The notes below the pieces were generated by a model. The model worked only from the letters and a program-made list of their open reading frames with translations. It made no database searches and was not told the origin of the DNA. This document shows, one piece after another, positions 30,901-36,800 of a stretch of 64,000 nucleotides of DNA; positions within the stretch are counted from its first letter, which is position 1; every line of letters begins with the position of its first letter. The stretch is from Cliona cf. orientalis (lineage: Eukaryota; Porifera; Demospongiae; Clionaida; Clionaidae), in assembly GCA_963930775.1 (NCBI GenBank), contig OZ005691.1:7251000-7314999 (forward strand). Reading direction: 5' to 3'. The position numbers were made by a program, and so were the translations under genes.

Positions 30901-33356
30901 ATCCGGAACCTCGATTATCCGGACTAGCCCGAGACCTAAAAATACATTACCACGCATGCGCAGAAGGAGTGACCGATGATCTTTTGTGGGTGTGGTTATA
31001 GATTGAGCGATGGGCTATGGACTCTACAGGCTTGCCTTGGCCAAAATTCACTGACCAAACGGTACTTTTCTGAACACTTCTGGCCATGATCATACTGTAT
31101 AGGTATCGTTTATAGGCTAGGTATCATAAACCAGGCGAGAAATATAGGCATTTCAGTTATCCGGACATTTCACTTACCCGGTATGGCAGCGATCGGCCGG
31201 TGGACAAAGGGGTCCGGATAATCGAGGTTGCACTGTACAAATACTATTCATAGTGTGAGGCATTGTGGGTTTCAGTTGACACTAGTGAGGCATACCACAC
31301 ATCCTGCCCACTGCATGCAATATAAACAGTGATATGGTAGGGTGGGCAGGGGAGAGTAATTGCAATATTCCTGAGGGGATACATAATATTATTATGATGG
31401 TCGAATGTAGATATGCATACTAGGTGAGTTTGGCCACTGGGTACCAACCGCCAAGGCATTGTTTTGTTCAGTGATTGTAAAGTACAGTTCGATGATTATA
31501 ATACCCAACTGATTGCCATAACTCGAGCAGGTATGGTCACTACATCGTTTATAGGGTGCATGACAAGTGATTAAGCAGATTTGTCACAAGCACAGCTGTA
31601 CTTGCAATTCATCAGTTGAATGGAAAGCTCAACTACACTACCATTCTGTACTGCTCTCAGCTGGTACTTATAGCTGCAATTAGTTTGCCAGAGATTGAAT
31701 GGAACATACACTGTACATGTACATAATTATACTGACTACCCAAGCTTGTACATGTACAAGCTAAAAGGACTATAATGTTATTGTCCTAGGTAAGCACCCA
31801 CTCCCAGATAACATTACATCTGTGTACCGAACTTCCCGGGGCCACTGTGTAGCAACTTTCAATACAAATGTATACAATTCATGTACTGACTAGTAGCGGT
31901 TGGACACATCCCAATATTACCTACAAGATACACCTACACGATCCTGTAGGATGGTTTTCCCTAAGTTAGGGGTGGGCTATGGAAGGTGAACTTGACTCTC
32001 ATCTAGCACATGTATGTATACCCGGTGTGTTTGTTGGTAACATCAACACCGACTAGTGAGAAGGTGTCATATCGCAGTGTACTAATTGATTCTGGAATGC
32101 TATTATGTGCCAGGTACATGTGTACGTTTCTAAGCAACACATAAGTAGGTGTGCATAACGTTATGTAACTTGTTACCAAGGTTCACTTTATAATCTGGAA
32201 AGTGATTGAAACCACCACTATGCATAGCCACACACTCTATGGCTACCTTCCTTGCGTACGTGACAGATAGTTAGATTGCTTAACGTCCACAGCTATAGAG
32301 ATTAGCTTAATCACTGCTCGATCAACAAACTCTGATGTGTTTTACTTTAATCAGCTAGAGCATTACTTGGGCTACAAATTTTTTTGTTAGGACTGTGCTT
32401 TCCCAGATAGGTGCTTATTTTTTCACGAATCAAACAGTTTTTATTTCATAGTTTGGATTATATGGGACAAATCAAACTTACCCAAGATTGGTACTTGTCT
32501 CAGAGGCTTCTCTTTCGTGATGACTTTCCAGAATGAAAAGTCTCCATGACGATCGACAACAGACCAGAAAAACAGCCAATCAAAGTGAGATACATGGTTC
32601 ATGATGATCACACTACGCTTCTTGAAGTGACCTTTGAATCCAAACGTACGGATCTTGATACCAAGCACTTTCTCTGTGTGTATTATAATATAGGAATCAT
32701 AGTAAAATGTTTGCTTGGAAACACACCATCACTTTCACTAACGTACCATAAAAGAACTTGATATTCAAAGAAGAATGATCCGATGTATATACATGTAAAG
32801 AAATTGAATATAACTTTATTAATAGATTAATAGTAATAATAATTGTTAGCAAACAGGTATACACGATTTCCAAAGCATCCGTTCACCATAATGATTGGCA
32901 TTACAACGCTACATGCAGAGCCTACACTTGTTGGTCCACCCAAGTCACATCGGTAATACTAAGATGCTATGGAGACAGCATATAATCTGGAAGCTTGCAG
33001 AGGGTTGACTCACATCTCTGCCTAGCCTCTCTTGATCCAACACTACAGTCCGAGCTACCTACACGTCATGGTGCACTTACACACATAACACACATCCAGT
33101 TGCCGGTGCACATGTCAAAGAATCTCCTGATTGCCCAGTGGACCCCAAGCCATGCTGAGAGAAGCAGAAAAGGTGGGATCCCCACAACAGGCATGGTACC
33201 AATCGTCAGGGCAACAATGGTGAAACACAGCGTGCCAAAGCTGTTTCGCATGTGGCGTTGGATGAAGTTAAACCTCTTATTAGCCTCTCCAGGTGCAAGG
33301 GGAGGGTTTTGGTTCTCACACACGTCCACAACTGGCGGCTCCTGCTCAGTACTCAT
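27918..33356 (-). CDS. LCLAT1/AGPAT-like lysophospholipid acyltransferase, tandem copy A
   Basis: Exons: 33356-33081, a 10-nt microexon 32756-32747, 32673-32482 and 28792-27918 (phases 0, 1, 1), encoding 450 aa. The order matches animal lysocardiolipin acyltransferase 1. There is an N-terminal membrane helix pair (residues 40-85), then the acyltransferase HX4D motif at His122-Asp127 (NHVSHFD), a GWCMQF block, FPEGGD at 201-206 (usually FPEGTD), the LHPRTTGF-like IHPRTTGF, and two C-terminal membrane helices. LCLAT1-type enzymes use acyl-CoA to re-acylate lysophospholipids in the ER or mitochondria-associated membrane; the exact substrate is not shown here. Copy B lies immediately upstream on the same strand. 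An NRF1-like site (ACGCATGCGCAAG) near 33679 may belong to its promoter. Confidence 0.9.
30540..30665 (+). repeat. dispersed repeat, copy 3 (partial)
   Basis: It shares CCTGTATCTGAGCGGTGAGAT, TGCAACCTCGAGGAT and CTGCTGGCCACTCTCT with copies at 5272-5424 and 18955-19110. Confidence 0.65.
30868..31237. mobile_element. pogo/Tigger-like MITE, 370 bp
   Basis: Perfect inverted ends TACAGTGCAACCTCGATTAT...CCGG / CCGGATAATCGAGGTTGCACTGTA. The CAGTG-AACCTCGATTATCCG terminus resembles Tc1/mariner-pogo elements, which duplicate TA on insertion. Extra GATTATCCGGA copies lie just inside the left end. No transposase is present. Confidence 0.75.
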
Positions 33357-33881: not shown

Positions 33882-36800
33882 TCAATTATGCCTATGACAC
33901 TGTGAGCTTTGCTTCTCCTCTTTCATTTTGGTAAATGCCTTTTGGATGTCCCAGTGTTTGTAGCGTAGCATGATGTAGTCCAGCCCTCCTCCATAAACGC
34001 TTATCCATAACTGACCAACAAAAACGACGATTAAATAGAGTACTCCATAAGAGGTTTGGACCAAGAGGTACATGAGAAAGTTGATGAAAACGATCGTGGA
34101 AACAGATGACCAAAAGAAGAAATAGTTTTTAGTGAGGAATGCCTCCCTTGATTTGTGACAAGGCTGACTGTGTACAGTTCCATTGCTCTGATGCGATGGT
34201 AAATTTTCACTTGTTGCTGACGGTTCTTCATTGTGCGAATCTTGAAATTCTTTGTTGGTGTAGAATTGTTTCAGCCTCTCTTCCTTCTCTGCCCAGCGAT
34301 CTCTGCACCACTGTCCTAGCTGTTCATCGTCCATGGGTAGGTCCCTTTCATCGTAGCTCTTGATGTGGAAGTGTACCTCTCGTGGCATAATCCCTTTGGC
34401 TATTTCCACCTCTGTCTTTGGCAGTGCATCTGGGTAACCAATGGTGACATCGTACACTGCGTCCAGCCCTCCGCTTCGTAGGGCATTCATGATATACACA
34501 AATCCAGTTGTCCTGGGGTGGATGCAGTAGTGGTAGCGCGGCAGACCGTTCTCATCTGCATACTTATCACTCCTTGTTTTTGTCTTTTTGGTCATATCTC
34601 CTCCCTCTGGAAACAGCAGCAGCTGGCAGGGAGAATTGATACAGTTGAGATAGAATAGTTTATCATGGAACTCCTTTTCATCTAAATCCCATCGCCGCTT
34701 GATGAACAGGAAATTGGAAAACTGCATACACCAACCTAAAAATACAATAGACAAAGGATGAGGGGCCTCTTGCTCTTGGTCCCTACTACAAAATGTTCAT
34801 CAGGTAAAAAGGGGTCTAGCTTTCTAGACTAGGGGAGAACATGTGACGATGCTAATAGCCTACATAAAACTAGAGCTCTATAGAGCACATACCCCGCGCG
34901 CCCTGTAGCCACTCTAGCGTAGTATTGCAATACTATGAGGCACACATGTAGCGGTTTCATGACGTGACGACCCTTTACAACTCAGTGCTTGAGCATGCGC
35001 AGTCGCATCCGCATACTAAAAAAAGGGTGTGGTCGATAAACCACAGGCATGCTGAACAGAAAATGCACGATTTATAGAACTAGTAAGCTTTTTCGAGAAA
35101 TTCGAAGCGCGTACAAACCATTTTTTCACCGATATCTACCGATTGGTTGTGCTTATAGCACGCACAGACGCCTAGAACTCGAGATCTGGCGATTTTCGTG
35201 CCGACGACGACAACGACAACAACAACAGACATACAAACCGATTGCTTTACCCCTTGCGCATGCGTGCGGGGTAATAAAGGTTCTGTAAAATGATTATTCC
35301 CCATAGGTAAATTATTATGGCGATATGCAGGATATTTCGTCGTCAGCTTCTACATGAACCCCTGGAATTTACAAACTAATGTGGCACCAGCAGTAGTTAG
35401 TGCCTGGCCATCCCTTCTTATAGCTAAGAGTCTACCAACTCTATGGTAGAGAGTGTGGTATTCATTTGCCCTCTAAAGAGAATATAGAGCCTTTGCCTAG
35501 CTACATGTACATATACAATGTATGCAAATAGATAAAAGCTTGGGGGGGGGTAGTCTACAGCTTGTAGGTTCATGTATGTAAAACCACAATCTAATCCGCA
35601 TGCAGATGTCATCTTTGATCGGCTAATTTCCTATCGAACAAGCCCAAGAAGGATACAAACCATGTATGATTCTCAACCAGGTGGGGTGGTGCAGCTAGCC
35701 GTACGAATCCTAGGCTAGCTATAGCAAATCTGTTAACAGTCTGATGCTTGCATACAATCCAGCCAGATGTAATTATGTATAAATGATTATTACATATTGT
35801 ACATGTAGTAAAGTTTGTGCACAGAACTATAATAACAGTGCATTGTGAATGGAGAAGTTTTGTTATCATCACAATACGTATTCACATTGTTGCTGACATT
35901 GAGACTGACATTGAGACATGTAAGATTCCTTAGAGGGCACATTATTGATCATGCAGCTATCACTGTACCCACTTACCTATGATTGGTACCTGTCTGAACA
36001 TGTCTTTAGTAATGACTTTCCAGAATGTGAAGTCTCCATGGCGATCCATAACAGACCAAAAGAACAGCCAATCAAAGTGAGATACATGGTTCATGATGAT
36101 CACACTACGCTTCTTGAAATGACCTTTGAACCCAAATGTACGGATCTTGATACCAAGCACTCTTTCTGCCAAAGAAAATGAGTGAGAGAGAGGCAGAGAG
36201 AGAGAGAGAGAGAGAGGAGGGAGGGAGAGAGTAAGAGAGAGAGAGAGAGAGAGAGAGAGAGAGAGAGAGAGAGAGAGAGAGAGAGAGAGAGAGAGAGAGA
36301 GAGAGAGAGAGAGAGAGAGAGAGAGAGAGAGAGAGAGAGAGAGAGAGAGAGAGAGAGAGTGAGAGAGACAGGGGAGAGAGGTCTATCACCACAGCTGTTC
36401 CATTATCACCCCCTCAAACTAGACTCAACATTGTCAATTATTCCAATTACTGCATGCCTACAGGTATGTAAAGTGCAAAGTGTGTTGATTCCAGTGCCAG
36501 ACACTATCCAGATTCTGAGCTACATATACACACTACATGTAGTACACGTACATGTCTAACAGTAATATCACAGCTTACCATAGAAGAACTTGATCACACA
36601 CAGCAACCACCGACCAGTAGTAATTCATCATACATGTAAACATAGGGAAGGATCACACAACACAGAACAATAGCTTTGACCTCTCGACAAACCCTGGGGT
36701 CAAGGTCAATGCTAGTAATCAAGCAACATCAGATTATTCATGTATATGCTGTTGTTGTTAGCAATTGCTAAAGTGGTATACTTAGGGTGCTAGCATTGGC

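Follow-up and report, generated by a model that had tools for sequence, protein, structure and literature searches.

A predicted 10-nucleotide coding microexon at one position in four acyltransferase paralogues

Two acyltransferase genes lie head to tail on the minus strand of the 64,000-nucleotide (nt) stretch of DNA analysed here (the window, which belongs to contig C3 in a genome of 217 Mb): copy B (37796 to 33882), followed by copy A (33356 to 27918). Very probably each gene contains a real coding microexon of 10 nt that is included as a rule and sets the reading frame, carrying it from phase 0 to phase 1. The original prediction had proposed such an exon in both copies, with a CAAG acceptor and a GTACGT or GTAAGC donor, and both 10-mers were found where it had placed them, on the minus strand at 32756-32747 (TTCTTTTATG, copy A) and 36588-36579 (TTCTTCTATG, copy B). 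Each is preceded by ATCAAG and followed by its donor (GTACGT in A, GTAAGC in B), which confirms coordinates and splice sites alike. Exon 1 ends in phase 0 (donor GTAAGT or GTGAGT) and exon 3 begins in phase 1, and an insert used with these sites must therefore be 3k+1 nt long. The microexon joins the two, and both gene models reproduce the predicted product C-FFYE-[RK]VLGIKI (..VMC-FFYE-KVLGIKI in A and ..IMC-FFYE-RVLGIKI in B).

The 10-nucleotide slot in related genes

Paralogues were compared within the same genome, where a search with the Acyltransf_C model PF16076 matched six places: A, B, a third gene (copy C), a more distant gene (paralogue D) and two further places, one on C17 and one on C4. 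Copy C lies ∼180 kb from A and B on the opposite strand and carries TTCTTCTATG, the identical 10-mer to that of B, between ATATCAAG and GTATGG, that is, with CAAG and GT sites. Paralogue D, on C16, is 33-39% identical to A-C and has a different 10-mer, GCTTTGTTTG, between CTGCAG and GTAGGT; the phases of its flanking exons are those of A-C, and the introns around the 10-mer are 58 nt (upstream) and 72 nt (downstream). Its product ALFE aligns with FFYE without gaps, the glutamate being invariant in all four genes. All four thus have 10 nt enclosed by an AG acceptor and a GT donor of their own, at one position and with the same change from phase 0 to phase 1. The proposed microexon is strengthened both by copy C, which has the same exon, and by paralogue D, in which another 10-mer occupies that place in the same phase. 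Because these two additional family genes carry a 10-nt exon at the same place, the sequences suggest that it is an old part of the gene and not a sequence accident; we infer that the slot already existed when paralogue D and the A/B/C group separated. Directly before the microexon A, B and C all have the acceptor context ATCAAG (32757-32762, 36589-36594 and L009 7768-7773), and D has CTGCAG.

The remaining matches added no member to this series. No matching microexon is claimed for the AGPAT-like gene on C4 (L013), in which the intron near the site is phase 1; 14 open AG-N(3k)-GT candidates of 3-33 nt were listed there, and none was judged by eye to resemble the missing hydrophobic residues, the comparison sequence being what we take to be AGPAT3. 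At the C17 place (L012) only a later exon was recognized within 9.9 kb. A second genome match of TTCTTTTATGGTACGT, on C18, was rejected as chance, as no AG directly precedes it.

Synonymous divergence (dS) was 0.40 for A-C, 0.85 for B-C and 0.92 for A-B, with dN/dS of 0.22-0.26 among the three copies, and this divergence is sufficient to make a shared microexon block informative. The stretch from exon 1 to exon 3, microexon included, measures 407 nt in A, 1367 nt in B and 1721 nt in C. The best match in each of the three pairwise intron comparisons was a block of 19-21 nt containing the microexon (E 4e-4 to 8e-6), with the next-best matches at E 0.027 or worse; the block shared by A and C reaches 24 nt when the query includes exons. 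Outside the block the introns of A-C could not be aligned, ungapped flank identity being 6-33% at positions -30 to -13, 37-53% at -60 to -31 and 17-29% at +7 to +30 counted from the donor. A, B, C and D contain 7, 35, 43 and 2 open mini-exon candidates of 1-61 nt, respectively, and exactly one candidate of at least 7 nt was common to A-C when one mismatch was allowed. When the introns were dinucleotide-shuffled 2000 times and searched for a shared candidate (open, 7-61 nt, at most one mismatch), none of the shuffles had one in common to A, B and C, and 8 of the 2000 had one shared by A and B alone.

A conserved block of this kind might also be an intronic splicing or regulatory element and no exon at all, and the conservation among A-C indeed extends into intron sequence, with ATCAAG ahead of the 10-mer and GTA behind it. 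We consider this very improbable: D has a different 10-mer of the same length, phase and position with a similarly hydrophobic product, and the only difference between the 10-mers of A-C is a synonymous one (TTT/TTC) at a third codon position.

By dS, copy A lies nearer to the distant copy C than to its neighbour B. Between A and B, DNA identity is 88% in exon 3 (32482-32673 and 35977-36165) and only 67% in exon 1 (33081-33356 and 37533-37796). Parts of the copies may have undergone gene conversion with one another.

Reading frame and protein-level comparisons

The original prediction had also stated that the frame fails without the microexon. This holds at the standard sites, where joining the exon 1 donor to the exon 3 start gave stops in four of four genes; since the microexon takes the reading from phase 0 to phase 1, omitting it at these sites breaks the frame. 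As a general statement it was too strong: with the standard donor, direct joins that stay in frame and meet no stop are available in A (AGs at -40, +2 and +20), B (+20) and D (+2 and +26), with none among those listed for C, and A, B and C each have a further one from a poor, non-consensus GT lying 4 nt past the donor. Protein family models used for prokaryotic proteins, which are free of such introns, provided an outside view of inclusion. Two models that span the site, NF010621 and NF058536, gave the included form the higher score in eight of eight comparisons, by 3.5 to 9.8 bits, and the TIGR00530 score, whose match begins past the site, was unchanged. When the candidate mini-exons were scored against D, the microexon was the best of 7 in A and the best of 35 in B. 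Hydropathy across the site is 0.9-1.2, placing the four residues in a stretch of moderate hydrophobicity that precedes the catalytic domain; if this stretch is a helix, their loss would remove about one helical turn.

A number of observations weigh against a normally included microexon. The microexon of A-C has an AAG acceptor whose pyrimidine tract is weak, and copy B is without short introns. NF052553 favours the skipped form in all four genes (A-C are listed only as skipped; D scores 28.8 versus 23.6 bits), and in an alignment to E. coli YihG alone the skipped form of copy C is slightly higher (46.2 versus 44.3 bits). In C the microexon ranks fourth of 43 against D, below three candidates of 22, 28 and 7 nt, and with the four residues of D masked it ranks first in A, second in B (tied with two) and fourth in C (tied). 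As the D-based score is not the best in C, what supports the exon there is that its 10-mer equals that of B and that the splice sites are shared. Finally, 152 of 2000 shuffled D introns held some open 10-nt candidate, and the case for the exon in D therefore rests on its place and product and not on its mere presence.

Alternatively, the 10-mer might be a cassette, skipped in some transcripts by use of the AG two bases inside exon 3, at least in A and D, to yield an enzyme lacking four residues. The joins at that AG read ..VMC-KVLGIKI in A and ..LVP-LVFGVRV in D, and the preference of NF052553 points the same way. We regard this as unlikely, because the AG in question is absent from B and C, NF010621 and NF058536 prefer inclusion throughout, and the glutamate that the microexon completes does not vary among the four genes.

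Two further schemes dispense with the 10-mer in at least one gene, and both seem barely credible. Exon 1 might extend four bases to the second GT and be joined directly to exon 3 (donor +4, acceptor 0), with a net loss of two residues, and A, B and C would tolerate this in frame; the +4 donors are GTGCAC, GTCTAT and GTTGTA, against the standard GTAAGT, GTGAGT and GTAAGT, no stop-free join of this type was found in D, and the conserved 10-mer is left without explanation. Alternatively, one copy could use another small exon, such as the 22-nt candidate in the copy C intron that ends ..TTGTTTG before GT and scores 146 against D, where the 10-mer scores 139. That candidate has no counterpart shared with A and B within one mismatch, and in these two copies the 10-mer scores best.

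The microexon looks constitutive. A broader and more tentative scenario, possible though short of probable, is that the exon is both ancient and constitutive in the LCLAT1/AGPAT5-like family, predates the split of these genes, is shared with other animal lineages and was kept for very long even though standard sites forbid skipping in frame; the AG two bases downstream would then have made it a switchable four-residue cassette in some copies.

Recognition of the exon and known microexon systems

Exons so small resist exon definition. The downstream intron measures 73 nt in A, 69 nt in C and 72 nt in D, against 413 nt in B; across the four genes upstream introns span 58 to 1642 nt and downstream introns 69 to 413 nt. 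Recognition of the 10-mer probably depends mainly on intron definition, acting on the downstream intron, which is short (69-73 nt) in all of the genes but B. This intron would be removed first, fusing the microexon to exon 3, and the upstream intron would follow once that fusion had taken place. For copy B, whose introns measure 944 and 413 nt, some additional aid would be required, such as a PRPF40-type factor that bridges an intron. Its intron 2 is lengthened by a long dinucleotide repeat at window positions 36186-36362 (reading AG on the plus strand and CT on the coding one).

The intron-definition model comes from C. elegans, where PRP-40-dependent and PRP-40-independent microexons are described (PMC8378409); D, and A and C on the downstream side, resemble the situation described there, whereas copy B differs in having long introns on both sides. 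In plants, gene families conserve microexons of 1-15 nt in both place and phase, and annotation often misses them (PMC8831610). The small ones among them (sizes such as 4, 5 and 8 nt) are like the present exons in their tiny size and in their conserved place and phase (PMC8831610). The plant microexons are backed by RNA-seq (PMC8831610), whereas the present ones are predicted, in what is probably an animal genome, perhaps that of a sponge, to judge from a Piezo-type exon in the window. In Drosophila, constitutive microexons account for 128 of 411 exon-microexon-exon cases (PMC8042270), and these are likewise small exons that are always included; in the present genes inclusion is predicted.

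The neuronal microexons of bilaterians, which depend on the eMIC domain of Srrm234, are similar in exon size only, being restricted to neurons and regulated (PMC8797185) and usually multiples of three (PMC8831610), whereas the present exon shifts the phase. At 10 nt it is not a multiple of three, and it cannot be skipped in frame at the standard sites in any of the four genes. SRRM_C (PF15230), which we take as a stand-in for eMIC, had no genome match at E<=1 in an exon-by-exon search that could miss a split domain and for which the control genomes were prokaryotic; cwf21 (PF08312) scored above its cut-off at two places. A neuronal programme of the bilaterian type is unlikely, given that the length is not a multiple of three and that SRRM_C, within the reach of that exon-by-exon search, was unmatched while cwf21 was matched.

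Microexons, including constitutive ones, are known in animals (PMC8042270, PMC13149111). The present case is a well-supported new example, the unusual part being that the same 10-nt slot occurs in four paralogues, one of them distant. In the open-licence literature we found no report of this microexon, nothing linking a microexon with LCLAT1 and, among the papers that mention both microexons and acyltransferases, no title on this family. The four genes offer a natural series, one 10-nt slot with varied intron lengths, outside the neuronal setting of most animal microexon studies, and lend themselves to the question of what retains an exon whose size does not permit exon definition. Gene finders easily miss a 10-nt exon, and automatic annotation of the family may consequently yield truncated or frame-shifted proteins.

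Gene models, family identity and surrounding frames

In our gene models copies A and B each have four coding exons (Table 1). The spliced protein of copy B matches PF01553 (Acyltransferase, 63.4 bits) and then PF16076 (Acyltransf_C, 49.1 bits), both above cut-off, and this content and order fit an LCLAT1/AGPAT membrane acyltransferase, enzymes that have the same domains in the same order. An N-terminal stretch present in copies A-C is absent from paralogue D. The four-gene alignment contains what we take to be the motifs named N-H-x4-D and F-P-E-G, and the FFYE stretch presumably aligns without gaps to animal LCLAT1. With copy B as query, phmmer found no match at E<=1 among PDB sequences, and the viral-contig and genome-contig collections yielded no relatives.

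Table 1. Exons and introns of the two acyltransferase gene models (window positions)
Feature	Position	Strand	Description
Copy A exon 1	33081..33356	-	276 nt from ATG; ends in phase 0 at ..WMCVMC/GTAAGT; homologous to copies B and C
Copy A intron 1	32757..33080	-	324 nt; 3' end ATATCAAG
Copy A microexon (predicted), TTCTTTTATG	32747..32756	-	10 nt; would code FFY and first base of E
Copy A intron 2	32674..32746	-	73 nt; GTACGT..ACACAG
Copy A exon 3	32482..32673	-	192 nt; starts in phase 1; AG 2 nt inside permits in-frame microexon skip
Copy A exon 4	27918..28792	-	875 nt; last coding exon, to stop; Acyltransf_C
Copy B exon 1	37533..37796	-	264 nt; ends in phase 0 at ..WICIMC/GTGAGT
Copy B intron 1	36589..37532	-	944 nt; 3' end GATCAAG
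Copy B microexon (predicted), TTCTTCTATG	36579..36588	-	10 nt; would code FFY and first base of E
Copy B intron 2	36166..36578	-	413 nt; long CT repeat on minus strand
Copy B exon 3	35977..36165	-	189 nt; starts in phase 1
Copy B exon 4	33882..34735	-	854 nt; final coding exon, up to the stop; Acyltransf_C and part of the Acyltransferase domain

Elsewhere in the window, two long open frames, 8679-12068 (minus strand, 1129 amino acids) and 2945-4675 (plus strand, 576 amino acids), have the look of membrane proteins and gave no Pfam match at E<=0.001. The open frame at 61682-62797 on the plus strand contains a Piezo1-like transmembrane unit (PF23188, E 3.6e-31), and a gene for a Piezo-type channel probably lies beside the acyltransferases.
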